Source: a virus
IMG/VR virus record: IMGVR_UViG_3300046810_000370
Location: 1-64,000 of that record
DNA: 64,000 bases
Reading direction: 5' to 3' (one strand)
Below are positions 23,762-53,976 of the stretch, piece after piece. The translations under genes were made by a program, and so were the position numbers. The notes under the pieces are model-generated. The model ran no database searches. It was given only the letters and a program-made list of their open reading frames with translations, and was not told the origin of the DNA. The stretch's first letter is position 1. Every line of letters begins with the position of its first letter.

Positions 23762-23790
23762 CAGGGGCCCCCGTAGGTATGAAGTCGCAT
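23758..23790 (-). CDS. 10-codon leader ORF with the LHT motif
   Basis: ATG (23788-23790) is preceded by AGGAG at 11-base spacing. The frame reads MRLHTYGGPC and stops at a TGA overlapping the TTG start of the RecA-like gene. CTTCATACC (23776-23784) lies in this frame in the same phase as all other copies. It could set up coupled translation of the weak TTG start. Confidence 0.55.
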   Translation of the reverse strand: MRLHTYGGPC

Positions 23791-24294: not shown

Positions 24295-26246
24295 CAGTTG
24301 CTCACCAGGTCGACTACCTCGCAGCCGCCGGCTGCCGAGCAGGCCAGTTCCTGGGAGCCCACGGTCTGGTCGTAGGTCTCGTAGAAGGCCAGGTCGGACC
24401 ACTCGACGCGGTACTCCTTGGCGACCTGGGCCTCGTACTCCTCCTGCGTGATCTCCGTGTACGGCGCCTGCACGTAGGTGTGGTCGCTGTACGGGAGGAA
24501 GGAGACACCGGAGATCTCGTCCAGGTGCTCCCAGACCCACTCGCCGACCTCGGCCCACTCGTGCTCGCGCACCGAGATGGTCACCGAAGGCTTGTGCTCG
24601 CACCAGAACCGCTGGTACGTCAGCCAGATCTCCAGGTGCTCGATCGCGGAGACGTCCTCACGCACCAGGGCGTTGTCGCCGGCTCGCTGGGGGAAGGTGA
24701 ACACCCACGCGGAGGAGTTGTAGGCGTCCTCCTCGTGCGGGATCCCGGCGTCGAGCATCACGAACGCGATGGGGTCCTTCTTGTCCACTCGCACGCGCCG
24801 CTCGTAGAAGCGGGCGTGCTTGGTATGAAGCCCGGACTCGCAGTCGACCAACTGGGAGACGGTGCCGGAGGGCTTCACACAGGTGATCGCGTCCGAGGAC
24901 GGGATGCCGATGCGCTGGGCCTCCGTCTCGTTGGCGACGCGTGCCGTCAGGCGAAGGTCGGTCAGCGCGAGGGACGTCAGTCCGTTGCCAGCACTGCCGT
25001 TGGTGTACTGGTTGCCGAAGACGCCGGTGAGGCTGACGCCGAGGAGTCGCTCCTCCTCCGCGTTCTTGCGCCACTCCTCACGCAGGTACGGGTAGTCCGT
25101 CAGCGTGCTCTGCCAGGTGCCGAGGATGGCCGCCAGGCGTACCTTGCGCTCCAGGTCCTCGACGGTGTCCTCCGGCCGGACGACGACCTCGGACAAGTTA
25201 CAGAAGGAGAAGGGACGCAAAATGATCTCGCTGCACGGGTTGGTCCCGTAGTCGGTGTCAGCCGACCGGTGCCCGTACTCAGCAGCCTGCCGCTGGGCTG
25301 CACCACGGTGGAAGATGCCACGCTCACCCGAGCCGGACGCGACGATCGAGTCCCACTCCTGGTTGAAGTCCTCGTAGCGCATGCCGTCGTAGTAGACGGC
25401 GGAGTTGTTGGCCAGAGCGCGGTAGCCGTGGTCCTTCCACCACTCCCCCGCCTTCGCCTGCGCCATCTCCTGGTCGTCCAGGTCGGACAGGCTGATCATC
25501 GCCGAGCGCCGGACGCCACCGACCACGACGACGCTGGCTATCTTGCAGGCCAGGTCGTGGACCTCGATCGGGCGGAACTTGCGGCCCTTGGCGCCCTCGA
25601 ACAGGTCGACGGTGAACTGGAAGAGGTCTGCGAGCGGACCCGGGCCGGAGGCTCGCCCTCCGAAGGTATGAAGCCGGGCGCCGGCCGGGCGCACCTTGGA
25701 CAGGTCCCAGTCGACGCGCTCGCCGTTCCACAAGGAGGTGAGCAGCGCGCGGAAGGCCAGGCCCCAGCCCTCCTTGGAGTCCTCGACGGGGATGTAGACG
25801 GCCTCGTTGTACTCGATGACCTCGGGGACGGCCGGGAGTTGGTCGGTGTAGCGGCGTTCGACCGAGTAACCGACCCCGGTGCCGTTCATGAGGATGTAGA
25901 GGAGTTCGTCCAGGGCGCGCGGATCCTGCAACGGCAGGTAACTGCAATTGAATCCGGCGATGTTCGAGCGGTCCAGCGCGGCGCCAGCAGTCATCACCGC
26001 GCGCATGGACGGCATGACCTCGTGGGTGAGGACGGCCTGACGGATGGCCTCGACGTCCTCCTGCTCGGGGACGTAGTCGTGCTTGTTCTTCAACTGGCCG
26101 AGCATGAAGTCGACGTAGCGGTCGACCGTCTCGGTCCAGGTCTCGCGTCGGTTGCGCTCCTCGTCCCAGCGGGCGTATCGCGACTTGGCGATGAAGGAGC
26201 GGTAGGGGTCGGCGATGTCGCCGGCAGGGGTGAGCAGGGAGGTCAC
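24294..26246 (-). CDS. nrdJ: Class II (B12-dependent) ribonucleotide reductase
   Basis: The 650 residues match adenosylcobalamin-dependent ribonucleoside-triphosphate reductases. Active-site residues are Cys101 (GFNCSYLP), Cys338 and Glu340 (TNPCSEIILRP), and Cys349 (FSFCNLSEV). The 338/340/349 spacing equals 408/410/419 of the Lactobacillus leichmannii enzyme. The C-terminal CSAAGGC supplies the redox Cys pair. It makes dNTP precursors. Two CTTCATACC copies occur at normally conserved places, RLHTFGGRASG and SGLHTKHARFYERR. The start is GTG (26244-26246), following a 37-base gap with a weak ribosome site. Confidence 0.9.
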   Translation of the reverse strand: MTSLLTPAGDIADPYRSFIAKSRYARWDEERNRRETWTETVDRYVDFMLGQLKNKHDYVPEQEDVEAIRQAVLTHEVMPSMRAVMTAGAALDRSNIAGFNCSYLPLQDPRALDELLYILMNGTGVGYSVERRYTDQLPAVPEVIEYNEAVYIPVEDSKEGWGLAFRALLTSLWNGERVDWDLSKVRPAGARLHTFGGRASGPGPLADLFQFTVDLFEGAKGRKFRPIEVHDLACKIASVVVVGGVRRSAMISLSDLDDQEMAQAKAGEWWKDHGYRALANNSAVYYDGMRYEDFNQEWDSIVASGSGERGIFHRGAAQRQAAEYGHRSADTDYGTNPCSEIILRPFSFCNLSEVVVRPEDTVEDLERKVRLAAILGTWQSTLTDYPYLREEWRKNAEEERLLGVSLTGVFGNQYTNGSAGNGLTSLALTDLRLTARVANETEAQRIGIPSSDAITCVKPSGTVSQLVDCESGLHTKHARFYERRVRVDKKDPIAFVMLDAGIPHEEDAYNSSAWVFTFPQRAGDNALVREDVSAIEHLEIWLTYQRFWCEHKPSVTISVREHEWAEVGEWVWEHLDEISGVSFLPYSDHTYVQAPYTEITQEEYEAQVAKEYRVEWSDLAFYETYDQTVGSQELACSAAGGCEVVDLVSN

Positions 26247-26283: not shown

Positions 26284-26733
26284 TCAGACGGTGCCGTCGG
26301 CGCGGATGATCGTGCCGGGCTTGTAGTTGCTCCGGCCTCCCGCTCCCCCACTCGCGGTCTGCTTGGCCGGGGTCGACGGGGTCGACTTGTCTCCGGACGG
26401 CAGTCCTGCGGTGGTCTGGGTGAAGCGGGGGTTGTAGCCGCACGTGTAGCACTGGGCCATGGCGTTGGGATGGCCGTGGGGCTTGAAGTACTCGCCGCCC
26501 TGGCAGTCAGGGCAGCGGGTGTCCTGCTTGGCCACCATGGCGCGGGCCGGCGCGCGGCCCTCGGTATGAAGTGGCACTGTCTGCTCGGGCTGCTGCTGGG
26601 TGGGGTAGGGCTGCTGCCCGGAGGCCCACCAGGGGGTGTTGGTCTGCTGCTGGGGCGCCGGCGCGGCGGCCGGGGCCGGGGCGGCCGGTCGAGCGGCCCC
26701 GCCTCCCAGTTTGTTGGCCCAGAAGTTACTCAC
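26284..26733 (-). CDS. Zinc-ribbon protein with disordered N-terminus
   Basis: The GTG start (26731-26733) overlaps the upstream stop region and reads VSNFWANKLGGGAARPAAPA. The first 65 residues are Pro/Ala/Gln-rich. The C-terminal half has CPDCQGG, then CYTCGYNPRF 25 residues later, a typical zinc ribbon. The phage motif (26563-26571, PLHTEG) is in the linker. A nucleic-acid-binding helper for the replication genes is plausible. Confidence 0.6.
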   Translation of the reverse strand: MSNFWANKLGGGAARPAAPAPAAAPAPQQQTNTPWWASGQQPYPTQQQPEQTVPLHTEGRAPARAMVAKQDTRCPDCQGGEYFKPHGHPNAMAQCYTCGYNPRFTQTTAGLPSGDKSTPSTPAKQTASGGAGGRSNYKPGTIIRADGTV

Positions 26734-27193: not shown

Positions 27194-29173
27194 CTACTTT
27201 GCCTCCGACCAGCGGTCCACGATCTTCACGTCGGAAGACAGCGGAACCTTCAGCAGTTTCTGGATGTCCTCGCCGAGCATGGCTTCCTTCACCAGGCCGG
27301 CTGCTTCCTCGGCCCGGTCCTCCGGGGCCAGGACCACGAGTTCGTCGTGGACCGAGAGGATCAGGCGGATCTCGTCCGGCAGGATGTTGTTCAGCCGGAT
27401 CATCGCCAGTTTGATCAGGTCGGCCGCGCTCCCCTGGATCAGGGAGTTCACTGCCTGACGCTCGGCTCCCATTCGCAGGCCATTCGACTGCGAGAGGATG
27501 AGCGGAAGGCGGCGCTTACGGCCGAGGAGCGTGCGGATGTAGGGCGGGCGCCGCGAGCGGCAGACCCGTACGACCTCTTCCTTGAACCGGTAGATCTCCG
27601 GGAACAACTTCTGGTGCATCTCCATGAAGCGCTTGGCGTCCTTGACGGAGATCTTCGCCATGCTGGCGACCTTGTCCGGGCCGGCGCCGTACACCACGGC
27701 AAAGTTGATTCCCTTGGCGACCTGGCGGAAGTCGATGCACTCCCGGTCGCCTTCCTTGACCCTGCGGATGAATTCCTGGGGGTCCACTCCCATAAGCGCG
27801 GCAGCGGTTGCCGAGTGGGGGTCGACGCCGTTGTGGAATCCCTTGTAGAGGTCGCCTCGGCCAATGAAGTGGGCGAGGACCACGAGTTCGATCTGCCCGT
27901 AGTCCGCGACGACCAGTTTGTATCCGGCCGGCGCGACGAACAGGCCACGAATCCGCTTACCGAGTTCTGTGTCCGGGCGCGGGATGTTCTGGAGGTTGGG
28001 TTCCCGGCAGGAGAATCGTCCGGTCACCGTGCCGTACTGGACGAAGTCGGCGTGGATGCGGCCGTCGAAGATGCGGGTGGGCTTCTTCGGGTCGCCTTCG
28101 ACGCCGAGGTAGGACAGCGGGTAGTCGAGCAGCTTGCTGACTTCGGCGTACTCCAGCAGCTTCTTGACGACCGCGTTGTTCTCGTGCTTCTCCAGGCTGT
28201 CGGCGTCGGTGGAGTAGTCCTTCCACTCCAGCGCCTGGCCGGACTCGCGCTTCTTCTTGCCGCCGTCGGTCGGCTTGGTGGGCTTGAGTCCCTGACCGCC
28301 GTCCTTCTTGGGGGCGTACAGGACCTGGGCCTTCTGGGCCGGGGCGTTGAGGTTGAACTGCTGGCCGGCCGCGCGGTAGATGTCGGCCTCGATGTCCACG
28401 AGGCGGGCGCTCATGTCGCGCACCAACTCCTGCATGGCCATCTGGTCGACGGGCGCGCCGGTGATGCCCATGTCGAGGAGCACGCCGAGGACGTCCTCTT
28501 CCAGGCGCCGTACGTTGATCAGGCCCTGGTCGTGGATACGCTTCTGGAACTTCTTCCAGAGCAGCCAGGTGTACTTCGCGTCCATGAACGCGTAGTGCGC
28601 GACCTTGGAGAAGGGGTGCGCCTCAACACACTTCCCGACGTTCTCCGTGTCGTAGTCGACCTTGTAGTAGCGCTTGACGAGGTCCTTGAGACCCTTCTGC
28701 TTCATGTTCTCGTCGAGCAGCCACTGGAGCACGATGGTGTCGCTGTACTGCGGCGGGGCTATCTCTCCCCAGTACTTCGCGGTCGAGATCAGGTCGAAGG
28801 TCGCGTTGTGCGCGATCTTGATCTTGTCCTCGGCGAAGAACAGCGGCTTGAGGATGGAGAACACCTCGGAGGGGAGCATCTGCTCCGGCGGGGCGTCGTA
28901 GACGGCCGGGATGGGGTCGAACTTCCCGGTGGTCCGGTTCTTCTTCTTCGTGCCCTTGCTGATCAGCACGTCGCCGTTGGGGTGACCGAACGGGATGGCC
29001 ACGGCCTCACCGTCGGCGGCCAGGCTCATCCAGTTGGCGACATTCTGGGTCGGGACGTTGCGGTTGGGGCCGAACGTCTCGATGTCGAAGGAGAAGGCCG
29101 GGCGCTCCATGAAGCGCTCGACCACGGTATGAAGTCGGTCAGGGGTGAGGATGACGGAGTGGCGGATGCTCAT
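27194..29173 (-). CDS. DNA polymerase I (family A) with 3'-5' exonuclease
   Basis: Exonuclease motifs: FSFDIETFG (Asp30, Glu32), AHNATFDLIS, and YAFMDAKYTW. Polymerase motifs: VVADYGQIELVVLAHF (motif A), RQVAKGINFAVVYGAG (O-helix) and LSVHDELVVLAP (motif C). There is no 5'-3' exonuclease domain, as usual in phage enzymes (659 residues). It is the replicative polymerase. CTTCATACC (29126-29134) falls at residues 14-16 (DRLHTVVERF), ahead of the exonuclease core. Confidence 0.95.
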   Translation of the reverse strand: MSIRHSVILTPDRLHTVVERFMERPAFSFDIETFGPNRNVPTQNVANWMSLAADGEAVAIPFGHPNGDVLISKGTKKKNRTTGKFDPIPAVYDAPPEQMLPSEVFSILKPLFFAEDKIKIAHNATFDLISTAKYWGEIAPPQYSDTIVLQWLLDENMKQKGLKDLVKRYYKVDYDTENVGKCVEAHPFSKVAHYAFMDAKYTWLLWKKFQKRIHDQGLINVRRLEEDVLGVLLDMGITGAPVDQMAMQELVRDMSARLVDIEADIYRAAGQQFNLNAPAQKAQVLYAPKKDGGQGLKPTKPTDGGKKKRESGQALEWKDYSTDADSLEKHENNAVVKKLLEYAEVSKLLDYPLSYLGVEGDPKKPTRIFDGRIHADFVQYGTVTGRFSCREPNLQNIPRPDTELGKRIRGLFVAPAGYKLVVADYGQIELVVLAHFIGRGDLYKGFHNGVDPHSATAAALMGVDPQEFIRRVKEGDRECIDFRQVAKGINFAVVYGAGPDKVASMAKISVKDAKRFMEMHQKLFPEIYRFKEEVVRVCRSRRPPYIRTLLGRKRRLPLILSQSNGLRMGAERQAVNSLIQGSAADLIKLAMIRLNNILPDEIRLILSVHDELVVLAPEDRAEEAAGLVKEAMLGEDIQKLLKVPLSSDVKIVDRWSEAK

Positions 29174-29256: not shown

Positions 29257-30063
29257 TCAGTCGTTCAGGATCTCGCGGGCTATCTGCTTGAGTTCGCTGC
29301 GCGAGTTCACCTGGAGCACGTCCTCGTCGTAGGCCTTGGAGTCGAACTCCTCCAGGTCCTGCTCGTCGAGGGGCTCGATGTCCCAGTCGTCGAGGAGGTC
29401 CCGCTCCTTGACCGGGGTGATGTAGTAGTTGGTCTTGTTGTTCTTGCTCTCCTTGCGGACGGAGAAGTACAGGTCGTCCCGGTTGATCGGGGCGGTCTTC
29501 TTGTCCTTGGAGTAGTTCTTGAGGATGTCCGCGACCATCGGGCCGAACTGCCAGATCTTGACCTGCGGGTCCTCGGGGTCGGTGAAGTCGACCACGTTGA
29601 AGCAGACCTGCTGGGACGGCTTGTCACCCGCGTCGTCGCACAGCGGGCACCGGGCCTCCAGGCACGTCCAGGACCGCTTCCCCTTGCGCTCGATCCAGTG
29701 CTGGAGGAAGACCAGGAACGGCTCCTCGTCGAGGATCTTCACGACGACGGACTCGTTGGTGACCTTGAAGTTCTCCGGGAAGCCGGAGGTCTGGGACTTG
29801 GTCTTCTCGTACGAACCCCAGCCCTTGCCGCCCACCTTCGGGGCAGGCTCATCGTCCTCGTCGTCCGCCTGGGAACGGCGCGAGCGGCGGGAGGTGTCGG
29901 CCTCCTCGGTATGAAGCGCGTCGCGGCGGGAGCCACGTCGGGAGCCACGGGCCGGCCGCTCGGTCTCCTCCTCGGCGTAGCCGTGCTCCTCCTGCTCCTC
30001 GTCGGCGGGGGTGTAGGCCTCGGTGGACGCGGCGGTGCGGCGACGGGTGAGGGTGCGGGCCAT
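29257..30063 (-). CDS. Zinc-containing protein, candidate single-strand DNA-binding protein
   Basis: The basic, disordered N-terminus (about 100 residues: TLTRRRTAAS, GSRRGSRRDALHTEEADT) precedes a globular domain with WTCLEARCPLCDDAGDKPSQ and VCFNVVDF. That is a CxxC pair plus outlying Cys within beta strands. An acidic tail follows (LLDDWDIEPLDEQDLEEFDS). Zinc-stabilised OB-fold, acidic tail and position just upstream of the polymerase gene recall T4 gp32-type SSB. The assignment is inference. The motif copy at 29908-29916 is in the disordered part. Confidence 0.45.
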   Translation of the reverse strand: MARTLTRRRTAASTEAYTPADEEQEEHGYAEEETERPARGSRRGSRRDALHTEEADTSRRSRRSQADDEDDEPAPKVGGKGWGSYEKTKSQTSGFPENFKVTNESVVVKILDEEPFLVFLQHWIERKGKRSWTCLEARCPLCDDAGDKPSQQVCFNVVDFTDPEDPQVKIWQFGPMVADILKNYSKDKKTAPINRDDLYFSVRKESKNNKTNYYITPVKERDLLDDWDIEPLDEQDLEEFDSKAYDEDVLQVNSRSELKQIAREILND

Positions 30064-30302: not shown

Positions 30303-30760
30303 TGCTCGGCCAGCCTCTTGAAGAGGTCGAGGACGCGGGCGCTGAAGTTGGTGCTCTTGATGGGCTTCTGGTGCGAGACCAGGACGCCTTCCTCGTGCGC
30401 GATGCGGACCACGCCTTCGATCTGCTCGCGGGTGTAGAGGCGGCGCCGGCCGCGTACGTCGTCGTCCCGGCCCGGGGACTGGTAGGTGCTCTTGGGGATG
30501 ACTCCCTCGCGCTCCCACTTCCGGATGGTCACCGGCTGCCGGCCGAGGGCCTGGGCGAACTGGCCGACGGTGAAGAACTCGGTCTCCACTCCGGCCACGA
30601 CGTACTTACGGGGCTTGGCGTCCCAGTCGGCCGCCGACTTGGCGGCCTTGGTATGAAGCCCGTTGCGACCCTGGTGCCGCACGATCGGCTTGGTGGATCC
30701 GGGGTAGAACTCCTCGCCGAGGTCGGCGAAGTCCTGCTCGATGCTGGCCAGCGTGGTCAT
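30299..30760 (-). CDS. MerR-like winged-helix DNA-binding protein
   Basis: Residues 60-115 read FFTVGQFAQALGRQPVTIRK, WEREGVIPKSTYQSPG and RRRLYTREQIEGVV. This is the helix-turn-helix plus wing of MerR/excisionase proteins. There is no obvious effector domain in its 153 residues. It probably controls replication genes or acts in DNA architecture. CTTCATACC (30650-30658) encodes NGLHTKAA before the DNA-binding part. Confidence 0.75.
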   Translation of the reverse strand: MTTLASIEQDFADLGEEFYPGSTKPIVRHQGRNGLHTKAAKSAADWDAKPRKYVVAGVETEFFTVGQFAQALGRQPVTIRKWEREGVIPKSTYQSPGRDDDVRGRRRLYTREQIEGVVRIAHEEGVLVSHQKPIKSTNFSARVLDLFKRLAEQ

Positions 30761-31347: not shown

Positions 31348-31725
31348 TCAGTACGAGATTCCGTCAACCTGCGAGGGAACCGCCTGACCCAGGCGAGTGG
31401 TGCGACGCTTCGCGTAGCGCTGTGCGTCGGCGTCCGTCTGGTCCTTGCGGACGGACGTCTCGGCGACGTCCTGGTAGACGGTGACCACACGGCGCTCGAC
31501 CGGGTCGATGACGGCTACGAGGTCCCCTCGCACGTGGCGAACCTGTCCAGGAACGCGGCCCGAGGGGTAAGTATGAAGCGGCTTGTTTGCCGCGAGGAGC
31601 ACGTCTTCGCTGGTCCAGCCCTTGGCGGTGGCCTGCTGCTGTGCGTGGTAGGTGAGCCGGAACTCCGGCGCGTCAGTCGCGTTGGCAGCCCAGGCGATGC
31701 CCAGGCATTCGGCGATGGTGGCCAT
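31348..31725 (-). CDS. DUF4258-like protein
   Basis: The ATG at 31723-31725 (MATIAECLGIAWAAN) lies 48 bases downstream of a good -10 box, which rules out the longer frame. FRLTYHAQQQATAKGWTSED, then VLLAANKPLHTYPSGRVPGQ and DLVAVIDPVERRVVTVYQDV match the DUF4258 layout, a small fold related to RelE/BrnT-type ribonuclease toxins. The product is 125 residues. No antitoxin is visible. The LHT copy (CTTCATACT, 31570-31578) is inside the fold. Confidence 0.65.
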   Translation of the reverse strand: MATIAECLGIAWAANATDAPEFRLTYHAQQQATAKGWTSEDVLLAANKPLHTYPSGRVPGQVRHVRGDLVAVIDPVERRVVTVYQDVAETSVRKDQTDADAQRYAKRRTTRLGQAVPSQVDGISY

Positions 31726-33963: not shown

Positions 33964-34150
33964 GTTCGGCCTCCGGCTGGGAGGTCATGTGGAAGCCCTT
34001 GCACGTCGGGCACGGGTAGACGCGGCACGGGACCTTCTCGCGGTCGGCGTCGTGCTTGCGCTGGATGCGCTGCATGTCGAGGACGGCAGCGATCTCGTCT
34101 CGGAATCGGCGCTTGCCGCAGGTATGAAGTCGTCGCTTGTTGTAGGGCAT
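33950..34150 (-). CDS. Small zinc-finger protein
   Basis: The ATG at 34148-34150 starts MPYNKRRLHTCGKRRFRDEI. Cys residues in HTCGK and CRVYPCPTCKGFH form a likely zinc site (66 residues). It shares a base with the primase stop (34150). CTTCATACC (34121-34129) supplies the LHT that borders the first Cys. Nucleic-acid binding is likely; the role is unknown. Confidence 0.6.
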   Translation of the reverse strand: MPYNKRRLHTCGKRRFRDEIAAVLDMQRIQRKHDADREKVPCRVYPCPTCKGFHMTSQPEAEHAGA

Positions 34151-35109
34151 CAGAACCTCGCTATGACGGATGAGTAGGCGTTGCGGACGGCGTTCTTGAG
34201 GGCGTCGGCCCCCATCTCGCCGGGGTCCTTGTAGGGCGCGGTGCCGTAGTCCAGGAACTTCAGAGCCAGGCCTCGGCCGGTCCACTCCTGGCGCAGGCGC
34301 TTGCAGGTCTCGGCGCCCGCGTTGTCGTTGTCGAGCGCGACGATGAGGGTGTCGAAGTGGTCGCGGACCAGGGACATCTGGACGTCGGAGACTCCGGCGC
34401 CGAACGAGGCGAGGCCGGCGGGGAACCCGGCGGCGCGCAGGCGGGCCACGTCCAGAGGGGACTCGACCAGGATGGCCGTGTCGCCCTCGTAGGTATGAAG
34501 CCCGAAGAGCGTCTTCGACTTGGCCATGCCCGGCGGCCGGTTGCGGAAGTAGCGGGCGTTCTTCTCCTGCCAGCCCCACAGCATCCCGGTGTCGGGGTCG
34601 CGGACGGGGATGATCCACATCTCCCGCTCGGCGTCCCACAGGATTCCGCAGGCCTCCGCGTCCTCCGGCATGAAGAAGCGCTTGGAGCACTCCTCCAGCG
34701 GCGGGGTGACGTACAGGGCCAGCGACGCCTCGTTGATCTGCTTGGTCGTGTCGACCGTCTTGGGGTCAGCCTTCTTCGCCAGGAACTTCTTGACCCGCTC
34801 GATCCCGCCGCGCTGGCGGACCCAGGCGACCGCGTCGCCGTACGGGAGGTCGAGCATGTCCTTCACGAGGACGACGAACGGGCCCTGGTACCGGCAGGAG
34901 AAGCAGTTGAAATATCCGGCGTCGTAGTTTATGGAAAAGGATGGGTGCTTGTCTTTCTTTCCGGTCCGCGCCTCGTGCATCGGGCACGGCATGTGAATCT
35001 CGTCGCCGCTGACCTTGTAGTCCAGGCCAATCTCGTCCAGGCAGGCCGTCACGTTGCCGGGAATCGGCGTTCCGACGGCGTCCCAGCCTTTCGCTCTCGC
35101 GGTCCTCAT
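34150..35109 (-). CDS. DnaG-type primase
   Basis: The N-terminal zinc site (MPCPMHEARTGKKDKHPSFS and YFNCFSCRYQG; Cys, His, Cys, Cys) matches CHC2 primases. The TOPRIM fold follows at residues 205-290: TAILVESPLDVARLRAAG (E), then LIVALDNDNAGAETCKRL (DxD). It synthesises RNA primers and would work with the DnaB helicase encoded upstream. It is 319 residues long. CTTCATACC at 34492-34500 (FGLHTYEGDTA) lies just before the TOPRIM Glu. Confidence 0.85.
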   Translation of the reverse strand: MRTARAKGWDAVGTPIPGNVTACLDEIGLDYKVSGDEIHMPCPMHEARTGKKDKHPSFSINYDAGYFNCFSCRYQGPFVVLVKDMLDLPYGDAVAWVRQRGGIERVKKFLAKKADPKTVDTTKQINEASLALYVTPPLEECSKRFFMPEDAEACGILWDAEREMWIIPVRDPDTGMLWGWQEKNARYFRNRPPGMAKSKTLFGLHTYEGDTAILVESPLDVARLRAAGFPAGLASFGAGVSDVQMSLVRDHFDTLIVALDNDNAGAETCKRLRQEWTGRGLALKFLDYGTAPYKDPGEMGADALKNAVRNAYSSVIARF

Positions 35110-35351: not shown

Positions 35352-36594
35352 CGGTGTTCGCCTCGTCCATGGCGAAGGGGTCCTCGTTCAGTTCCTCGAA
35401 CTTGCCGGTCTCCCAGTCCCACTGGCAGTACGTCTCCAGGGGCGGGCAGTTACGGGCCAGGACGACCTTGATCTTGTTGATGTTCGCGTCGTCCGTGGAT
35501 TCGACACCGAGGATGACGTCGGAGTCCTGGGCGAAGGAGGACGAATATCCGATCGAGTCGGAAGTGATGCCCTTCTTCTTGTTCATCTTCCATTCCAGGA
35601 CCTGCGTGGAAATGACGATCGGTATCTGAAGGTTCTTCGCCATGCGCTTGAACCCTCGGGTGAGATTGGTGAGCGCCTGACTGGATCCCTGAGCCTCGCC
35701 GAGTTCGTCCTGCATCATGTAGATGCCGTCCACGAATACGATCGTCGGCCGAATGGCGTCGATCTTCGACTGCACGCCGGTGAGCGTCGTCGCATTCATG
35801 GAGTCCGAGGAGAGGAAGAACGAGGGCATTGCCTCAAGTTCCCGGAGGGCCCTTTCGAGTTTGTCCCACTCGACCTTCTTCAGGGTTCCGTTCCTCAGCC
35901 GGGCGTGGGAAATCCCCGCGCGGATGGCATCGAAACGTTCCTCCTGCTCCTCATTCGACATTTCGAAGCCGATGAAAAGCGGGCGTTCGCCGTACAGGTG
36001 CGCAGCCATGGCGGCCAACAACAGCAGCGTGGACTTGCCGGCCTTCGGCGGGCCGACGAAGGTGACCAACTGCTCCTTCTGGAGGCCCTGGGTGGCCCTG
36101 TCGATCGTGTTGAAGCCGGTGGGTACACCGCGCAGCCCGTCGGGCAGGTCCTTGAGCGTGAGGTACCGGGCGAGGCGTTCCTGGCCGGTCTCCGTCAGGT
36201 CGGTGTCGCGGGCGTTGGGTACGGCCGAGGCGATGGAGGCCAGGGTGCGCGCGAGCGCCTCCATGGCGGCGTTGGCGTTGCCCTCTTCGTGTGCGTCGAC
36301 CGAGTCGGCCAGGCCCTGCTCCAGCAGGGCCAAAGTATGAAGTTCCCGCAGCCGGTCGGTCAGCACGTTCATGCTGTCCTCGACGCGGACGAACTTGTAG
36401 GTGGGGAAGTCGGTCTTGATGGTGGCGAGGGACGGCACCTCGCCGTAGTTGCCCTTGTGCCGCAAGATCGCCTTGAAGACGGCCCGGTTGTCCGGGTCGC
36501 CGAAGAAGTCGGGGGTGATGCCCGCGTCCGCGACAGGTGCCAGGTCCTTGTCCTGGATGACGCGGGAGACGAGCAACCGCTCGAAGTCCGCCAC
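35329..36594 (-). CDS. Replicative DNA helicase, DnaB type
   Basis: Walker A is TFVGPPKAGKSTLLLLAAMA (around residue 185). Walker B is IVFVDGIYMM, and SSSFAQDSDVILGVES plus an Arg near the end fit the RecA-like DnaB core. The N-terminal 110 residues match the DnaB N-domain (ITPDFFGDPDNRAVFKAIL). It unwinds DNA 5'-3' ahead of the fork. The start is GTG sharing a base with the upstream stop. CTTCATACT (36334-36342) encodes RELHTLALLEQ in the linker helix. Confidence 0.9.
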   Translation of the reverse strand: MADFERLLVSRVIQDKDLAPVADAGITPDFFGDPDNRAVFKAILRHKGNYGEVPSLATIKTDFPTYKFVRVEDSMNVLTDRLRELHTLALLEQGLADSVDAHEEGNANAAMEALARTLASIASAVPNARDTDLTETGQERLARYLTLKDLPDGLRGVPTGFNTIDRATQGLQKEQLVTFVGPPKAGKSTLLLLAAMAAHLYGERPLFIGFEMSNEEQEERFDAIRAGISHARLRNGTLKKVEWDKLERALRELEAMPSFFLSSDSMNATTLTGVQSKIDAIRPTIVFVDGIYMMQDELGEAQGSSQALTNLTRGFKRMAKNLQIPIVISTQVLEWKMNKKKGITSDSIGYSSSFAQDSDVILGVESTDDANINKIKVVLARNCPPLETYCQWDWETGKFEELNEDPFAMDEANTDGYVGAF

Positions 36595-37037: not shown

Positions 37038-37279
37038 CAGGTTCGCTCCGCCTCGGCGCGGAGCTGGATATGAAGCCAGTTGCCGCGACGTTCGCGGTGG
37101 GTGTCCCAAGTCCGGACGGTGAACCCGAGGACCCGCGCGGTGTGCATGGCGCGCCAGATCAGGCGCTGGGTTTCGGAGTGGATGGCGCCCCGGCCGGCCA
37201 CGGCCTGGTGGAGTTCCCCTTTGTGGAGAATCACCAAAACCTCGTCCTTGAAGGGGAGGACCAGTTGCTCATGCGGCAC
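37037..37279 (-). CDS. Unknown 80-residue protein
   Basis: MPHEQLVLPFKDEVLVILHK begins a small alpha/beta protein ending GNWLHIQLRAEAERT. The final LHI is the CTTCATATC variant (37067-37075). It overlaps the upstream ATPase by 11 bases and shares a base with the downstream gene. The His residues (HKGELHQ, AIHSETQ, RAMHTARV) could bind metal. No family recognised. Confidence 0.55.
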   Translation of the reverse strand: MPHEQLVLPFKDEVLVILHKGELHQAVAGRGAIHSETQRLIWRAMHTARVLGFTVRTWDTHRERRGNWLHIQLRAEAERT

Positions 37280-37928
37280 GGCGGTCTGCTCCTACCAGGG
37301 TGAGGTGGGTGAAGGCCTCCTGGATGAAGGAGCCCATCGTGGGGTTGTAGATGGCGCCCCACTCCCGGGGCGGGACGTTCGAGGTGACCAGGGTGGGCAA
37401 AGCCTCGCGGTGCCGCTGGCGCAGGAGGGTGTCGAGCAGGCCCTCGGCGTAGCCGGTCTTGGTGCGGTGCTCCTTGCCGACGTCGTCCAGGAGGAGGACG
37501 GGGGCCTTCTCGGCCGCCACGATCTTGTCCTGGATCTCCCACCAGCGGGCGACGGCTTCGGGCTCGTGCCGGTCCTGGAGGCCCATCTTCTCGATGGAGT
37601 CCTTCACGAAGTCGGCGTAGGCCAGCCAGTGGACCGGCAGGCGCTTCTCGAAGTAGACGTCCAGGAGCGTGGCGGTGGCCAGTGAGGTCTTGCCGGTGCC
37701 GGGCGGGCCGACGAACAGCAGCCCCTTGCCGATCTGGGACCAGTCCTTGGGGTACTGGTCCAGCGGGCGCTTGTCGGTGACGTAGTGGTCGCGCAGTTCG
37801 TCGAGCCAGGTCTGGCAGGCGGCGCGCTGGGCAGCGTCCGCCACGGTATGAAGTCGCAGGTGGCGGTAGTGCGCCGGGACGCCGTACTCCTTCAGGCGCA
37901 GGGCGTGGACCCGGGGGTCGGTCGCCAT
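37269..37928 (-). CDS. DnaC-like AAA+ helicase loader
   Basis: Walker A is GLLFVGPPGTGKTSLATATL (residues about 70-80). Walker B is APVLLLDDVGKEHRTKTGYA, and sensor I is PTLVTSNVPPREW. This is the DnaC/IstB pattern, about 219 residues, and it most likely loads the DnaB helicase encoded in the same unit. The promoter at 37967-37995 and an AGGAGG ribosome site precede it. CTTCATACC (37845-37853) encodes RLHTVADA near the N-terminus. Confidence 0.85.
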   Translation of the reverse strand: MATDPRVHALRLKEYGVPAHYRHLRLHTVADAAQRAACQTWLDELRDHYVTDKRPLDQYPKDWSQIGKGLLFVGPPGTGKTSLATATLLDVYFEKRLPVHWLAYADFVKDSIEKMGLQDRHEPEAVARWWEIQDKIVAAEKAPVLLLDDVGKEHRTKTGYAEGLLDTLLRQRHREALPTLVTSNVPPREWGAIYNPTMGSFIQEAFTHLTLVGADRRAA

Positions 37929-38050: not shown

Positions 38051-39031
38051 TCAGGACCAGTAGTCCTCATTGAACCGGTTGTCCTCCATCACGCTGGCGG
38101 CCTTGCCCAGTCGCTGGGCCAGCAGGCCACGGGCTGCGAGGAAGTCCTTCCAGGCGACCACGTTGTCCGAGCGCTGCCAGGAGACCGACCAGTACGTGAT
38201 GATCATCTGGCGGATCTCGTCGCGCCCGGTGCCCTGTGCCATCCACCGGCCGAAGTTGCCGGTGAGCGCAGAGAGGTTGGCGGCTCCCGGCACCGGATGG
38301 CCGACGTCCTTGGCCCGCTGGTCGAAGAACAAGGCCAGCGTCTCTGAAGGCCGCACGGAGCGTGCCTTACGACTTCGCTGGACCGGAGGGGCCAGGTCAT
38401 CATCCGAGGCCGGCACGCGGGCAGCCAGGGACTCTCCCGGATCTTCCGCGTCGAGAGCCTGGGACACCACGTACGCCGGGTCGAGTTCCCGTTCCGCCTG
38501 TTCCCTCTCCAGGGCTTCCTGCTTCCGGGACTTCTTACGGCCGCCACGCTTGGGGGCTGCAACCGCTCCCCAGCCCTTGGAACCCGGCTTGGGAGGGTCT
38601 TCCCCCAGGGCGTCGCCCTGGAGATACGAAGTATCTCTATTACTTCTAGGTTGGTTATTGGGGTTGGGTGAAAACTTCGACACAGGGGGTGCAGAATCTG
38701 CACTGCTGAGGGGTGCAGATTCTGCACTCGCCGGGGCGGAAGGCCACTCCACGACCGGCTTGATGCGCCGGACCACGGACTTGTAGCGCAGGGCCTCCAC
38801 GGGGGCCTCGTCGTCCGGTACGTGCTCGACGATCCCCTGCTCCTCCAGGGCCGCCAGCGACGAGTACGCCTGGCGCTTGGAGACACGGGCCTTGCCCGCG
38901 ATGGTGTCGGCCGACTCCCAGCACATGCGGTGGGTGTCGTTGGCCGCGTCCGCCAGCGCGAGCAGTACGAGCCTTGTAGCCAGTCGGGTATCCGAGTGCG
39001 TGAACACCTCGGACATGATCAGGATGCTCAC
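38051..39031 (-). CDS. Winged-helix replication/regulatory protein
   Basis: The N-terminal 75 residues read as a HTH_36-type winged helix: THSDTRLATRLVLLALADAA, CWESADTIAGKARVSKRQAY, LAALEEQGIVEHV. A long disordered basic linker follows (KRGGRKKSRKQEALEREQAE), and then a C-terminal helical domain of about 100 residues, as in phage replication initiators that bind origin and loader. The GTG start (39029-39031) overlaps the stop of a 15-codon leader ORF. It precedes the DnaC-like gene, so an initiator role is likely but unproved. Confidence 0.7.
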   Translation of the reverse strand: MSILIMSEVFTHSDTRLATRLVLLALADAANDTHRMCWESADTIAGKARVSKRQAYSSLAALEEQGIVEHVPDDEAPVEALRYKSVVRRIKPVVEWPSAPASAESAPLSSADSAPPVSKFSPNPNNQPRSNRDTSYLQGDALGEDPPKPGSKGWGAVAAPKRGGRKKSRKQEALEREQAERELDPAYVVSQALDAEDPGESLAARVPASDDDLAPPVQRSRKARSVRPSETLALFFDQRAKDVGHPVPGAANLSALTGNFGRWMAQGTGRDEIRQMIITYWSVSWQRSDNVVAWKDFLAARGLLAQRLGKAASVMEDNRFNEDYWS

Positions 39032-39075
39032 TCGGCGACTCCGAGGAAGCGATAAGTATGAAGCGATATCGCCAT
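39028..39075 (-). CDS. 15-codon leader ORF with the LHT motif
   Basis: ATG (39073-39075) follows AGGAG with 10-base spacing. The frame reads MAISLHTYRFLGVAE and its TGA overlaps the GTG start of the winged-helix gene. The motif copy is CTTCATACT (39055-39063). Like the leader at 23758-23790, LHT is followed by Tyr. Confidence 0.55.
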   Translation of the reverse strand: MAISLHTYRFLGVAE

Positions 39076-39126
39076 GGTAGGTTGACTCCTATCTCGGGGT
39101 TTGTGGTGGGCCTCGGGGTGTGGTGG

Positions 39127-39185
39127 GCAAAGGCCCCCGGCAGTGGCTTGAGGTCTTGAACCTCGCCAGCGCCGGGGGCCTTTGC
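39127..39185 (-). terminator. Very strong terminator
   Basis: A 15-bp perfect stem, GCAAAGGCCCCCGGC (39127-39141) with its complement (39171-39185), encloses a second stem (GAGGT/ACCTC). It begins 5 bases after the stop of the 403-residue gene. It separates the late/EP-rich gene from the primosome operon. Confidence 0.85.
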
Positions 39186-39190
39186 GTTAC

Positions 39191-40402
39191 TCACTCCGAG
39201 TCGAGTTCGAGGCCCTTCTCCTCGATCTCCGCACGGGTCAGGTGAACCACCTTCGAACCGGCCGGGATCCGGCCACGGCCGCGACGGGCGTAGTTGCCCT
39301 CGTCGTCGACCAGGAACGCGAACGTCTTGGACTCGTCACGCGGACGGCCACGACGCCGGCGCGTGGAGGACTGCTCCTCCTGCTCACCCTCGGACTGCTC
39401 GGCGGCCTCCGGGGCTTCCTGCTTCTGTTCGCCGGTCTGCGGCAGGGTATGAAGCGCCTTGGCCAGCAGTTCCGTCAGCGGTCGCTCGCGTACGTCGGCC
39501 TGGTTGATGACCGCGTTGCGCTCGTCCTCCAGACGGAGCACCTTGTAGGCACCCTCCAAAGCGGCGCGTATCAGGAGCAGGTCGATCTCGGCGTCCGGGA
39601 CCGGCTTGGCGGTCTCCTTCTGCTGCGCCTTGTGCTGCGCGCGGGCGATCGTCTCCTGCAAGGACTCCTGCTCGCTGATGTCCTCCTCGACCGGGGACTC
39701 CTCCGGCTCCGGCTCGGCCTTGCGGCGGGAGCGGCGGGGCTCCGGCTTCGGCTCCTCCTCCTTCGGCTCGTCCTCGGTCAGCGGCTCCTCCTGCGGCTCG
39801 GCAGCCTCGGGCTCGGCACGACGACCGCGACGGCGGCCACGCTTCGGCGCCTCCGCCTCCGCCTCGGGCTCCGGCTCGGGCTCCGGCTCGGGGGCGGGGG
39901 CGGCTTCCGGCTGCTCGGCGAAGGAGATGTCGTCGAGGCCGGCCGTCAGGTCCTTGGCCTTGATGCCGGCCTGCTCGGCGGCGTCCAGGAGGAGTTCGGC
40001 CTCCTCGCTGCCCTCGTCGCCCCACAGGAGGATGACGTGGGCGTCGCCCTGGCTGTCGGCGTTCTTCAGGAGGTCGACGATCCCGGCGGTGACGTTGGCC
40101 GTACGGACGACCTCTTCGGCGTCCGTGAGGATCTTGTCGACCGCGCGGCTCTTCTCGCCGTCGGTGACCGCGATGAACGGGATGTCGGCGTACTCGGACC
40201 ACTCCAGGACGGCCTCCAGGCCGTCGGAGAGGTGCTTCTTGGTGATGGGGAGGATGAGCGTGATCTCGCGCTCGGACGGCTCGGGGTAGCCGTCCGCGTC
40301 GTCGTCGCCGAGACCCACGAAGTCGTTCAGCAGAGCCTTGACGTTCTCGACGTCCGTATCGGCGGAGCCGGCGAACGCGAGGGCGATGGGCTGAGTGCTC
40401 AA
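39191..40402 (-). CDS. Two-domain protein with acidic Glu/Pro linker
   Basis: The TTG start (40400-40402) has GGAG at 5-base spacing. Residues 1-160 form a likely Rossmann-like domain (PIALAFAGSADTDVENVKAL, REITLILPITKKHL, DIPFIAVTDGEK, AHVILLWGDEGSEEAELLLD). Residues 165-260 are low-complexity Glu/Pro/Arg (PEPEPEPEPEAEAEAPKRGR). A charged helical part and an Arg-rich end follow. It has its own promoter and a strong terminator, so it is made separately. The function is unknown; it could organise phage DNA or host factors. CTTCATACC is at 39446-39454. Confidence 0.6.
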   Translation of the reverse strand: MSTQPIALAFAGSADTDVENVKALLNDFVGLGDDDADGYPEPSEREITLILPITKKHLSDGLEAVLEWSEYADIPFIAVTDGEKSRAVDKILTDAEEVVRTANVTAGIVDLLKNADSQGDAHVILLWGDEGSEEAELLLDAAEQAGIKAKDLTAGLDDISFAEQPEAAPAPEPEPEPEPEAEAEAPKRGRRRGRRAEPEAAEPQEEPLTEDEPKEEEPKPEPRRSRRKAEPEPEESPVEEDISEQESLQETIARAQHKAQQKETAKPVPDAEIDLLLIRAALEGAYKVLRLEDERNAVINQADVRERPLTELLAKALHTLPQTGEQKQEAPEAAEQSEGEQEEQSSTRRRRGRPRDESKTFAFLVDDEGNYARRGRGRIPAGSKVVHLTRAEIEEKGLELDSE

Positions 40403-40451
40403 GTCTGCTCCAGGTGTGTGGTGTGTGCCGCCCTGATCGGCGACGAGTGAG

Positions 40452-40480: not shown

Positions 40481-40483
40481 GAA

Positions 40484-40506: not shown

Positions 40507-40522
40507 CTCAATTCGCTTGACA

Positions 40523-40808: not shown

Positions 40809-41348
40809 TCAGATCGACCTCGTACCGAGCCCGTTGACCTTCGGCAGCACGATCGTGGAGGCCGCAGGCGGGCTGACGCGGTTCTCGACGACACGCTTCT
40901 CCATGACCCGCCGCACGGCGTCCTCCACACTCCGGGAGATCTGCTCGACGACCTCCTCGCCCAGCAGCGTGCCGCCCGCCGGGGTCTCGGTGACCTGCGT
41001 CTCCTCTACGTACCGGGCGATGGTGCCCGGCGAGATATGAAGCCGGCTCTCCGTCTCGGTTACGAGGGTGTTCTGGAGCGTGGCGAACCACGCGTACTTC
41101 TTGAGCAGCGAGTGGTAGAAGGTCGTGCCGGTCACCCATGCCAGGAAGGCGGCCACGACAGCCGGCGCCCAGTAGAAGTGCTGCGGCTCGGCCTGGTGGA
41201 CCGCCCAGAAGCCTGTGGCGACCGAGAGGGCGGCGTGCGCGATCCCCTTGACCGTGGGGTTGGTGGACGGCCGGGTGAACAGGGCGACGATGGCGGGCAG
41301 GACCAGGCCGACGACGAGGGATGCCGCGCCGGCGTAGTTGCTGAACAT
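40809..41348 (-). CDS. Membrane protein with cytoplasmic tail, holin candidate
   Basis: The ATG at 41346-41348 (MFSNYAGAASLVVGLVLPAI) starts a first membrane helix. HAALSVATGFWAV and FYWAPAVVAAFLAWVTGTTF follow, then a 100-residue soluble region (LLKKYAWFATLQNTLVTETE, ISRSVEDAVRRVMEKRVV). The 179-residue layout, with a long charged tail, resembles phage holins of actinophages. CTTCATATC at 41034-41042 (SRLHISPG) is in the tail. Confidence 0.5.
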   Translation of the reverse strand: MFSNYAGAASLVVGLVLPAIVALFTRPSTNPTVKGIAHAALSVATGFWAVHQAEPQHFYWAPAVVAAFLAWVTGTTFYHSLLKKYAWFATLQNTLVTETESRLHISPGTIARYVEETQVTETPAGGTLLGEEVVEQISRSVEDAVRRVMEKRVVENRVSPPAASTIVLPKVNGLGTRSI

Positions 41349-50400: not shown

Positions 50401-51741
50401 TAGCCGGTCGCCCGTGATCGAGCCCGCCAGGATCTGCGTAGCCGTCAGCGTTCCGGCGGTGATCTTCGAGGCGTCCAGCGATCCGGTCGCGATGCGCGCG
50501 GCGTTGAGCGTACCGACGTTGATCTTGCCCGCGTCGAGGTCGGCGATCTTGGCGTTGTTGATGGCCGCGTCGGCGATCTGCGCGTTACCGATGGCGCCGT
50601 TGATGATCTTCGCCGAGCCGATCGTGGCGTCGGCCATCTGCGCGCCGGTCACTGCGTTGTTGGCGATGTTCGTGGTGCCGACGGCCAGGGCCGCCAGCTT
50701 GCCTGCCTCGACAGCACCGTTGGCTATGTTCGCGGCCAGGACGGCGTTCGCCGCCAACTTGGTGTTGTCGATGGCGCCGACCGCGATCTTCGCTGCCGTC
50801 AGTGCCCCGTCGAGGATGTCCTGGGCGAGGGCCTGCTTGGGCGTGGCCGAGTTCGAGCCGGAGGGGGCCGAGGCGACGCCGACCTTGGAGTAGGCGATCA
50901 GCCGGTAGTAGTAGGCGTTGGCGTAGTTCTGGATGGAGTCGTACAGGAAGTCCTGACGGGGCAACGTCCCGATCACCACAGGGTTGGTGAACCCCACGAC
51001 GGTGTCCCGCTGCACCTGCACGTGGGAGAAGATCGCGGGCATCGCCGTGCCGGTGCTGTCCCTGCCGTCCCAGGTGACCCGCAGGCCTCCGAGTACGCCG
51101 AGGACCGCCGGGGCGGAAGGCACGGGCGGCGGGGTCGTGGACGACGCGGACGTGATGTGCGCGGAGGCCCACAGAGAGACGTTGCTGGAGTTGTCGACTG
51201 CCTGTACGCGGACCGTGACGTCCGCGCCGGTATGAAGTCCGTCTAGGACAACGAGCGTGTCCTTTGTGCTGAGTCCTCCGGACCAGTTGTTGCCGTCATA
51301 GGAGAACTGGAGGAGGTAGTGGGACAGGTCGGTGAGGTTGGTCCCGTCCTGGTTCTCCGTCGGCGCGGTCCAGCCTGCCGTCACGCGGGCCTGCGTCGCC
51401 CCCTCGTCGGTGACGTACTGCACCGTGGTGAGGTTGAGCGCGGTCGGCTCCTTGGGCGGCAGCGCGTCGAGGCCGGTGGGCAGGTCACCGACTGCGTCCT
51501 GGACGGCCTTGATGCCGAGCGGCGAGTAGACCGGCTTGGTGATGTCTCCGCCGGAGAACTGCACCCACAGCGTCTGGCCGGTCGCCGGCACCGTGTTGGT
51601 CGGGGATGACGGAACCGCCCAGGCGCTCTCGGCGCTGCCCAAGACCTGCGGTATCAGCATCGTCACCCGCGCCTCATTCAGCGGGTCCTGGTTATTGGCG
51701 ACGCTACCCCGGTACATTCCGAGGCACGGCTCAGCCGACAT
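47476..51741 (-). CDS. Giant tail spike/central fibre: gp5-like base, FN3 domains, repeat stalk
   Basis: The 1421-residue protein starts with an OB-like gp5/gpV domain (LGMYRGSVANNQDPLNEARV, LWVQFSGGDITKPVYSPLG). FN3-type domains follow (residues 100-300). Residues 300-545 form a stalk of short degenerate repeats (GAIDNTKLAANAVLAANIAN, GTLTATQILAGSITGDRLAA) and a Thr/Ser-Ala run (ATSATTATSATSATSATSAG). The C-terminal 850 residues are beta-rich, likely glycan-binding. It would attach to the hub encoded just upstream. CTTCATACC (51229-51237, DGLHTGAD) lies in the first FN3. Confidence 0.8.
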   Translation of the reverse strand: MSAEPCLGMYRGSVANNQDPLNEARVTMLIPQVLGSAESAWAVPSSPTNTVPATGQTLWVQFSGGDITKPVYSPLGIKAVQDAVGDLPTGLDALPPKEPTALNLTTVQYVTDEGATQARVTAGWTAPTENQDGTNLTDLSHYLLQFSYDGNNWSGGLSTKDTLVVLDGLHTGADVTVRVQAVDNSSNVSLWASAHITSASSTTPPPVPSAPAVLGVLGGLRVTWDGRDSTGTAMPAIFSHVQVQRDTVVGFTNPVVIGTLPRQDFLYDSIQNYANAYYYRLIAYSKVGVASAPSGSNSATPKQALAQDILDGALTAAKIAVGAIDNTKLAANAVLAANIANGAVEAGKLAALAVGTTNIANNAVTGAQMADATIGSAKIINGAIGNAQIADAAINNAKIADLDAGKINVGTLNAARIATGSLDASKITAGTLTATQILAGSITGDRLAANTITANQIAANTITANQMAAGTITAQSGVIASIDASKITVGKLSASQIDATNLVVTGGNVNGTVASATSATTATSATSATSATSAGTVTGSIGAGVSVPAGQLSNGTIPTTTTINGGSIKTGTIDASLASITNLDASSITAGTLTVDKFSAGLQGLVGQKFYDFGTNASKWRNNAGAGGTISSVSKTDAASGGFVMRCAGYVQGAYRPDLLIPFDPTVTYRVTCRVRQVSDNSTPGTNQNFYAGVTGIASDGVTLVNITGANSVSSQHYVAAKGVPLTTGGPWVTYTGYIKGVAATPTGSSTANNPTAPATLHQNVKYISPCLYLNYSGGSGAAEMDMFTIEVVETGQVNSTNINLGNVNAQHLSLGSVTGNLVTNGGFEDVARPGWTLTQSDNTLVTTAAKIEIGQGGYPARSGQGKLALGVNNTGTATATSDPFTVVAGDVYMLRYWYYGIGHLHVTFETSPDKVTWTDMLASANDVTYNSASYTEDIFEGIIPTGALYGRVTFQQLNPGSYGLSTTSFSYICVDDVLVMREGYGATDISAGGVRLYGPDGMLQTELTSTNAHATFAAGAASIDPNGVGTFNSIFTPIRPDTATSDDPTGQIWYQGKELSDLLWNMPWGIVTYERGWTNKPTSTTYYTTDTGLIELAFTAVEGRMYRIIARSQFDFNGGTGNQVLECRINVAGTTTSLNGCTLVNPNGASPRVTDTTIARNFGMYYDGGGTDGTTVVEGIITCSADAGGLYSSTTALAPGDHRILWAATQHSGNATGWGLRNYIPAQSSDFYVEDVGPALPENGVYNTGGAAVTATKTYTKTYKATWSRRFGNAGYSDGTMYQGYYSGTWGTNKSMVGFGTQPFTDMGSTAKVSKVEVYLYANHWYYNAGGTAHIGVHTQVSAPTSSASTNNLTVANWPVGAGKWVTLPSSWNSTWNAATPYRGITLGGDLGSSTNKTYYGAFDGFGDSHPPQLKITYTK

Positions 51742-53144: not shown

Positions 53145-53944
53145 CGGCCGCCCTTTCCGCTCTTGGCGGCCTGCTGGGAGGCAGACAGTGGGTCGCCCCA
53201 GTTCGAGGCGCGGGGGCCGATGAATCCGGGCTTGGCCTCGTACCGGTTGCCGCCCGTCGGGGTCGGCAGCAGCGTCACGGTGATCGTGACCTGGCAGCGG
53301 GAGGGGATCATCTCCTGGGTCCAGTGGGTGTACTGGAGGTCCAGCGACTGGATGACGCCGTAGTAGGCCAGCGACGTGCCGATCACGACGTACACCGGTA
53401 CGTAGGTCATGGGGCCGGCTGGACCGTTGGTGTACTTGCCCTTGTTGAACGCTTCCTTGAAGGCGTCCGCGTCGGCGCTGTTGTCGTCGGTCACCGGCAT
53501 CGGAGTGGCGATACCGGTGATCTTGTAGAGGGAGAGGATGTCGTAGGCCACGCCGAAGAACGGCACCATCGTTGCCGCCTCGCCATACAGTTTCGACGGG
53601 TCCCACAGTTCGTAGGTCCGGTCGAAGAGCAGGCTGAAGGTCAGCGACTGCTGGAGAGGCAGCAGCGTCTGTCCGGCGGTGACGTCGTTCTTGTCGACCG
53701 CGTTCGGGTCGGACAGGACGTTGGCGTCGATGCCGTGGGAGATGTTGATGGTGCTCGGGTTGTAGAGGAAGTTGCACCGCTGGCGGGCGCCGTTTACCGG
53801 CTTCTCCTGGATGATGAATCCACGGGTCAACTTCTTTCCGCCCGAGCCCGTCACCCAGTCGGTTCCGCCAAGATTCTGCGTGAACGGAATCGAGGTGATC
53901 CGAGGGTCGAAGGGTCCGTTGTCGACGATCTTGCTGGCAGCCAT
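53141..53944 (-). CDS. Tail/baseplate protein
   Basis: The ATG at 53942-53944 (MAASKIVDNGPFDPRITSIP) shares a base with the stop of a 10-codon mini-ORF. A longer frame from TTG 53957-53959 would run through that mini-ORF. The protein is beta-rich (NFLYNPSTINISHGIDANVL, LTFSLLFDRTYELWDPSKLY), as in tail tube-initiator or gp48/gp54-like proteins that connect tape measure and hub. It is 267 residues. The LysM-like protein follows by four-base overlap. Confidence 0.65.
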   Translation of the reverse strand: MAASKIVDNGPFDPRITSIPFTQNLGGTDWVTGSGGKKLTRGFIIQEKPVNGARQRCNFLYNPSTINISHGIDANVLSDPNAVDKNDVTAGQTLLPLQQSLTFSLLFDRTYELWDPSKLYGEAATMVPFFGVAYDILSLYKITGIATPMPVTDDNSADADAFKEAFNKGKYTNGPAGPMTYVPVYVVIGTSLAYYGVIQSLDLQYTHWTQEMIPSRCQVTITVTLLPTPTGGNRYEAKPGFIGPRASNWGDPLSASQQAAKSGKGGR

Positions 53945-53976
53945 TACTCGGCCGCCCAAGTATGAAGTCGGTTCAT
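53944..53976 (-). CDS. 10-codon mini-ORF with the LHT motif between tape measure and tail gene
   Basis: MNRLHTWAAE begins at an ATG sharing one base with the tape measure stop (TAATG). It ends at a TAA sharing one base with the next ATG (TAATG). It thus exactly fills the gap between the two genes. The motif is CTTCATACT (53959-53967). The AGGT before its ATG is a modest ribosome site. Confidence 0.55.
   Translation of the reverse strand: MNRLHTWAAE

Follow-up and report, generated by a model that had tools for sequence, protein, structure and literature searches.

The 64,000-nucleotide stretch of viral DNA analysed here (positions 1 to 64,000 of IMG/VR record IMGVR_UViG_3300046810_000370; hereafter the window) comes from a Streptomyces-type phage that carries a short tag at about 30 places. 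What is conserved in this tag is a string of eight nucleotides in one fixed reading frame and not a peptide, because the tripeptide LHT was spelled CTT CAT ACY in 22 of its 23 occurrences within called genes of the window and because sister phages read LNT. In the window, CTTCATAC was found 27 times on the coding (minus) strand and never on the plus strand, compared with about 0.9 copies expected. Alignment of 224 distinct contexts gave the wider consensus G CTT[C/A]ATAC C TAG G (G CTTMATACC TAG G), in which the codon after the motif was mostly one change from TAG and was a stop in six contexts. CTTMATAT was a minor form of the motif, and the tripeptide can have Thr, Ile, or Met in third position. 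Written as RNA, the mark is CUUCAUAC in its C form and CUUAAUAC in its A form.

The initial annotation had singled out a 15-codon leader ORF upstream of a replication-initiation-like gene. This ORF is present as described: it starts with the ATG at 39075, encodes MAISLHTYRFLGVAE, follows an AGGAG site 10 nt 5′ of its start codon, and ends in a TGA (39030-39028) that overlaps the GTG start (39031) of the 326-aa gene. We carried out the comparison of relatives that had been suggested as a check, and the leader was retained in all nine genomes read over this region, five of C-type (e.g., MTLSLHTYRFLGVAE, MGISLHTYRLLGAAE, and MPLPLHTYRLGRAGN) and four of A-type (e.g., MSSRLNINGGFGAAE). All nine leaders contained the motif in frame, as CTTCATAC or, in A-types, CTTAATAT, and ended in a TGA that overlaps the next start. 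The case named beforehand as counting against the proposal, the gene preceded by a leader that lacks frame or motif, did not occur in these nine genomes.

The surrounding DNA has further structure. Within the replication-initiation-like gene, near-perfect palindromes (GTGCAGAATCTGCAC and GTGCAGATTCTGCAC, window ~38688-38735) resemble an origin inside an initiator gene. A strong inverted repeat, GCAAAGGCCCCCGGC...GCCGGGGGCCTTTGC (window ~39113-39187), lies directly 5′ of the leader and is terminator- or processing-like, and another hairpin occurs near window 40480-40512.

The "RecA leader" (MRLHTYGGPC), cited in the initial annotation as a parallel, has the same design, and the view that chance is a poor explanation agrees with the count of CTTCATACTTAT-like sequences (7 versus 0.28 expected) as well as with the excess of CTTCATAC given above. 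The Tyr after LHT, described as a common trait of the two leaders, did not prove constant, since the following codon is diverse and TAG-like. Two leaders before two DNA-metabolism genes are real, in frame, and conserved, but the motif is far wider than this pair: 24 of the 27 window copies lie inside ordinary ORFs, in a broad assortment of genes that takes in tail genes and ribonucleotide reductase, whereas the regulatory codons of a leader-peptide attenuator would occur only in the leader. Leader peptides for two DNA-metabolism genes are not the main use of the motif. Between the tape-measure and tail genes there is a third mini-ORF (MNRLHTWAAE), which has no clear Shine-Dalgarno sequence, and many copies outside called genes were located in short ORFs that have a start codon and frequently a Shine-Dalgarno sequence as well. 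The positions of these features are listed in Table 1.

Table 1. Positions of motif copies, mini-ORFs, and associated genes (window coordinates unless a genome is named)
Feature	Position	Strand	Basis or remark
Leader mini-ORF MAISLHTYRFLGVAE	39028..39075	-	sequence; kept in 9/9 genomes covering region
AGGAG ribosome-binding site of leader	39086..39090	-	sequence
Motif CTTCATACT, frame 0 of leader	39055..39063	-	motif count
Replication-initiation-like gene, 326 aa, 3′ of leader	38051..39031	-	PHROG 391, 1032 and others
Leader mini-ORF MRLHTYGGPC, 5′ of recA-like gene; motif 23776-23784	23758..23790	-	sequence
Mini-ORF MNRLHTWAAE; motif 53959-53967	53944..53976	-	sequence
CTTCATAC, gene 57176-58039, codon 5	58020..58027	-	
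CTTCATAC, tape-measure gene 53976-57038	54133..54140	-	
CTTCATAC, tail gene 47476-51741	51230..51237	-	
CTTCATAC, gene 39191-40480	39447..39454	-	
CTTCATAC, gene 37269-37928	37846..37853	-	
CTTCATAC, gene 35329-36594	36335..36342	-	A-type relatives: CAGCACACC
CTTCATAC, gene 34150-35109	34493..34500	-	A-type relatives mostly CTGCACACC (native LHT)
CTTCATAC, open frame ~33950-34160, absent from first gene list	34122..34129	-	
CTTCATAC, gene 31348-31833	31571..31578	-	A-type relatives: CAGCACACC
CTTCATAC, gene 30299-30760	30651..30658	-	A-type: CTTAATACC
CTTCATAC, gene 29257-30252	29909..29916	-	
CTTCATAC, DNA polymerase gene 27194-29173, codon 14	29127..29134	-	
CTTCATAC, gene 26284-26808	26564..26571	-	
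CTTCATAC, ribonucleotide reductase 24294-26351	25666..25673	-	A-type: CTTAATACC
CTTCATAC, ribonucleotide reductase 24294-26351	24823..24830	-	A-type: CTGCACCAG (His kept)
CTTCATAC, near end of recA-like ORF 22577-23761	22590..22597	-	A-type: CTTAATACC
CTTCATAC, ORF 19211-19909	19353..19360	-	
CTTCATAC, gene 17355-18056	17386..17393	-	A-type: CTTAATACC
CTTCATAC, gene 13852-15111	13886..13893	-	
CTTCATAC, gene 12276-13139	12613..12620	-	
CTTCATAC, gene 11599-12183	11978..11985	-	
CTTCATAC, gene 10679-11068	11013..11020	-	
CTTCATAC, gene 7160-8125	7653..7660	-	
CTTCATAC, small gene 5058-5516	5326..5333	-	
Minor form CTTCATAT, frame 0	62143..62150	-	converted from contig coordinates
Minor form CTTCATAT, frame 0	41035..41042	-	converted from contig coordinates
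Minor form CTTCATAT, frame 0	37068..37075	-	converted from contig coordinates
Minor form CTTCATAT, frame 0	9433..9440	-	converted from contig coordinates
Minor form CTTCATAT, frame 0	6846..6853	-	converted from contig coordinates
HicA-like protein, 81 aa	G004 102595-102840		weak PF07927, allele association

Among 42 loci gathered via the DNA polymerase, some carried CTTCATAC at about 7 copies per 10 kb and others had none, the latter carrying CTTAATAC. The 28 larger records of close relatives comprised 14 C-type (CTTCATAC) and 14 A-type (CTTAATAC) genomes, which were mutually exclusive: no record had more than a single stray copy of the other type's word. When 578 sites from 23 genomes were grouped into 74 clusters, 35 were shared and switched, 18 were found only in C-types with the A-type aligned, and 10 only in A-types with the C-type aligned. 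At the 35 shared sites, the switch between C and A exchanges His and Asn. At several private C sites the A-type has CAC, a native His, and at several private A sites the C-type has AAC, a native Asn; this points to selection for the nucleotide word in its codon frame, with His/Asn changes as the price of a switch. Given that a single letter of the tag is swapped genome-wide between sister phages, we infer that something reads the tag during translation.

In the eight genomes for which genes were called, 245 sense-strand copies fell within genes, the minor form included, and every one of them was in frame 0 (CTT-[C/A]AT-AY), with gene calls in the relatives taken from our own simple script and not from a published gene finder. 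These genomes also contained one copy antisense to a gene whose call is doubtful, as well as a few dozen outside called genes. We then asked where CTTCATAC could be placed in A-type proteomes with at most one amino-acid change, and found 345 sites in frame 0 versus 1176 and 626 in the other frames. Frame 0 is therefore the least available frame, and protein tolerance cannot cause the frame bias. Each full-length record (G002, G003, G004, G005, and G022), and likewise the partial A-type G014, had one copy on the opposite strand. In the four cases read out (G002, G004, G014, and G022), this copy was in frame, 4-12 codons past the ATG of an opposite-strand ORF, which in G004 precedes a serine-recombinase-like gene; the mark therefore follows the gene and not the DNA strand. 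Together with the fixed frame, these opposite-strand ORFs count heavily against a frame-blind DNA operator or an antisense target, and argue strongly that the mark has to be read on mRNA under translation.

Mark density per 10 kb was 6.4 in the replication region, 6.1 in the right arm, 2.0 in the structural genes, and 0 in one 17-kb stretch. Marks tended to occur once per gene, a tendency that reached significance in about half of the genomes tested; they were enriched within 20 codons of the gene start (58 versus 24 expected), while their place within the gene was not fixed.

More distant relatives carried variants of the motif. A 63% relative (G035) was C-type, with 8 copies in frame 0 versus 0.007 expected; 67% relatives had a [C/G]TTCATAC form, and both VHT and LHT were present in G028. 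In a 64% relative (G033), in-frame CTT-CTA pairs were in excess (45 versus 2.0). CTTCTA was less pure there: besides the 45 copies in frame 0, 17 were in frame 2, another 17 fell outside called genes, and 6 were antisense. CTTCTAG gave a cleaner pattern, with 27 copies in frame 0 and a single one in frame 2; the frame-locked CTT-CTA(G) of this genome is likely a third motif allele. GAT, GTT, CAT, and AAT followed by CTA were also in excess in G033 (L159-L163). The motif was absent in the stretches read of BRock, Alone3, pSt2308, and Streptomyces prophages (50-54%), and INPHARED contained no near DNA match. Palindromic GAACCGGTTC repeats occur on both strands in motif-poor relatives (L136 and G028).

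Taken as a whole, these patterns may be explained best by a codon-phased mRNA mark read by a HicA-like protein, a reading to which the sequence comparisons lend slightly less than an even chance. Under this proposal, the mark CTT-[C or A]AT-AY, present about once per marked gene and densest in the replication/recombination region and the right arm, would be sensed only upon in-frame decoding by the ribosome. A mini-ORF 5′ of some genes, such as the 39028-39075 leader, would carry the mark so that it gets translated. An orphan HicA-like protein of the phage, related to mRNA interferases, would cleave a message under translation at the mark, in codon register, and thereby lower expression of marked, mostly early genes at some stage. 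The mark that ends the gene for this protein may allow the protein to restrain its own production, and a change in reader specificity would force a genome-wide change of the mark. The comparisons show the in-frame mark, its orientation with the gene, its concerted allele switch, and its retention in leaders; the link to HicA, and a part for the mark in the turnover of early-gene mRNA, are what we infer. A role in deciding between lysogeny and growth would fit as well.

The orphan HicA-like protein, for which RNA cleavage is predicted, is our best candidate for the reader. Its gene ranked second among the 103 G004 genes with data for tracking the motif allele against the general background; a 51-aa gene was more strongly associated and a 147-aa gene adjoining dnaB ranked third. 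The protein comes in three forms, one for each of the three motif alleles, and form and allele agreed in 24 of 24 loci, several of the genomes being near-identical. The association is confounded by descent because the C and A types represent, in part, distinct lineages. The end of the gene itself carries the motif in C-types and in G031. The gene lies outside the window's 65.9-kb record and was uncovered or not seen in the partial 61-67% relatives. The match to PF07927 scored 15.5 bits (E 0.019), below the gathering cut-off of 27. GGNH, which includes the putative catalytic histidine, was invariant in 12 sequences of the protein, within a conserved GGNHxxW. The predicted order of secondary structure was a-b-b-b-a, as expected of the dsRBD-like HicA fold, with a core pLDDT of about 85, and solved HicA chains were among the best structural matches (4p78, 1whz, and 6g26) at Z 4.6-4.8, a level that unrelated folds also reach and that can come from a common arrangement of helices and strands; the top Foldseek match was 1whz (E 0.099). 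A search of solved structures with the alignment of the protein returned chance-level matches only, INPHARED contained no relative beyond weak partial matches, and a scan for allele-fixed residues was dominated by descent and pointed to no clear gene as reader.

Like the HicA interferases of HicAB pairs (E. coli and Adephagia gp91; PMC8546651, PMC11373665), the candidate is small, with a predicted helix-three strands-helix order and a conserved Gly-x-His. E. coli HicA has been reported to cut in codon register, before the first codon position, which fits a frame-locked mark and which its authors found hard to reconcile with ribosome independence (PMC8546651). The candidate differs from HicAB in its sub-threshold family match and in that no HicB neighbour was recognised; in G004 it is flanked by a 380-aa protein that matches nothing in Pfam and by a 94-aa protein whose only matches, all of them weak, have no connection with HicB. 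Its presumed targets are also different, being copies of an eight-letter mark within genes of the phage itself, whereas E. coli toxins of the HicA kind recognise short, weak motifs and are much less specific (PMC8546651).

Cut sites in a phage's own essential genes would have to bring some benefit, and the mark could equally be a pause site. The ribosome might slow on CTT-[CA]AT-AYN, with its two U-ending wobble codons and fixed next base, or be held there by a phage factor other than HicA, so that translation is coupled to mRNA stability, folding, or timing without any cut. Such pausing would account for the reading-frame requirement and for the different in-frame pair, CTT-CTA, used by G033, but other slow codons should then substitute, yet the string is exact and type-exclusive, and its place in the gene is not fixed. 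We regard this explanation as rather unlikely. A signal at the level of the peptide, with nascent LHT or LNT acting as an arrest peptide or cleavage tag, would likewise explain the constant frame; the near absence of synonymous spellings, the variable third residue, and the coexistence of VHT and LHT in G028 make it the most improbable of the readings weighed here.

Stoperators of cluster A mycobacteriophages (PMC9283540, PMC6550527) are likewise many short, asymmetric, one-orientation copies with group-specific variants, and a group-specific repressor that blocks transcription at such sites would suit the orientation of the phage motif with transcription and a temperate phage, as the recombinase genes suggest. 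Stoperators are, however, frame-indifferent DNA sites, whereas the phage mark lies inside genes and is locked to the reading frame even though other frames offer more tolerable sites, and many copies outside called genes lie in mini-ORFs with starts. A frame-blind DNA reader is strongly disfavoured by these patterns, and a stoperator-like site seems highly unlikely. Pairing of all marked messages with a phage RNA containing GGUAUKAAG appears very unlikely as well: a mini-ORF site in five genomes, where the motif is followed by an inverted repeat and both arms change with the allele, would favour it, but RNA pairing needs no reading frame, and the repeat covers only the inner part of the motif, without CTT.

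Several other readings were rejected. Frameshifting or hopping was set aside as frame 0 is open beyond the motif in most genes, and native LHT in other codons at one site of A-type relatives indicates that the motif is decoded normally. Sites in ribonucleotide reductase and elsewhere are in-place substitutions and not an insertion element; orientation tracks the gene and not the genome, against a DNA polarity signal for replication or packaging. A carry-over from TAA/TTA in the A allele does not explain the frame limit, given the C form in deeper relatives and C-only sites that are also in frame 0. For a phage tRNA-His as reader, ARAGORN found none in C-type G022.

T4 RegB resembles the proposed system in being a phage endoribonuclease that cuts a short motif in the phage's own early messages. 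It differs in that its motif is found mostly in Shine-Dalgarno regions and lacks codon phasing. We know of no described virus that keeps dozens of copies of one frame-fixed word within genes, at an amino-acid cost and changed between close relatives, and a full-text literature search for such a viral word returned nothing relevant. Start-associated sequences of cluster K mycobacteriophages (PMC11373665) are also short one-way repeats tied to gene starts but, unlike the phage mark, lie before the start codon and are untranslated. Our scan recovered these sequences in Adephagia, which has a HicAB-like pair, and detected no such frame-locked word there; an excess of the CTT-GAG pair was not strand-specific.

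It is conceivable, at odds a little short of even, that a phage regulon is defined here by an in-frame codon string in coding sequences and not by operators, with a translation-coupled HicA-like ribonuclease of the phage whose changing specificity brings about a genome-wide, amino-acid-changing rewrite of its sites (His/Asn at 35 sites). If the link to HicA is true, an orphan mRNA-interferase relative gains a natural regulon, and the question of HicA-ribosome cooperation becomes directly testable. Over-represented frame-locked 8-mers offer a simple genome test for further translation-coupled regulators.

The phage family looks temperate because of its XRE-type regulator and recombinase genes; in G004, an XRE-type regulator with a small neighbour gene, a serine recombinase, and a tyrosine recombinase were identified by eye at 98892-99942 and 747-4249. 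The same genome encodes an RNA repair set at 87982-91816 (L047:13038-16872), comprising an RlaP-like nucleotidyltransferase, a T4 Rnl1-like RNA ligase, and Pnkp, of which the ligase and Pnkp genes bear the mark. C-type G004 and G002 carry an 86-nt tRNA-His(GUG) with a tRNA-Leu-like long variable arm and an apparent G-1:C73 pair (L047:9573-9658, L076:1737-1822). The mini-ORF with the inverted repeat ends in LHT* or LNT*, or has the motif adjoining the stop; motif and inverted repeat (CATACCTAGCCCTAGGTATG or AATACCTAACCCGGGTATT) form arms that covary with the motif allele. With contigs oriented to the coding strand, it was located at G004 86084, G002 102840, G022 80151, G015 59259, and G025 44480, and in G004 and G025 it precedes the gene for a membrane protein that contains an HTH_17 domain.
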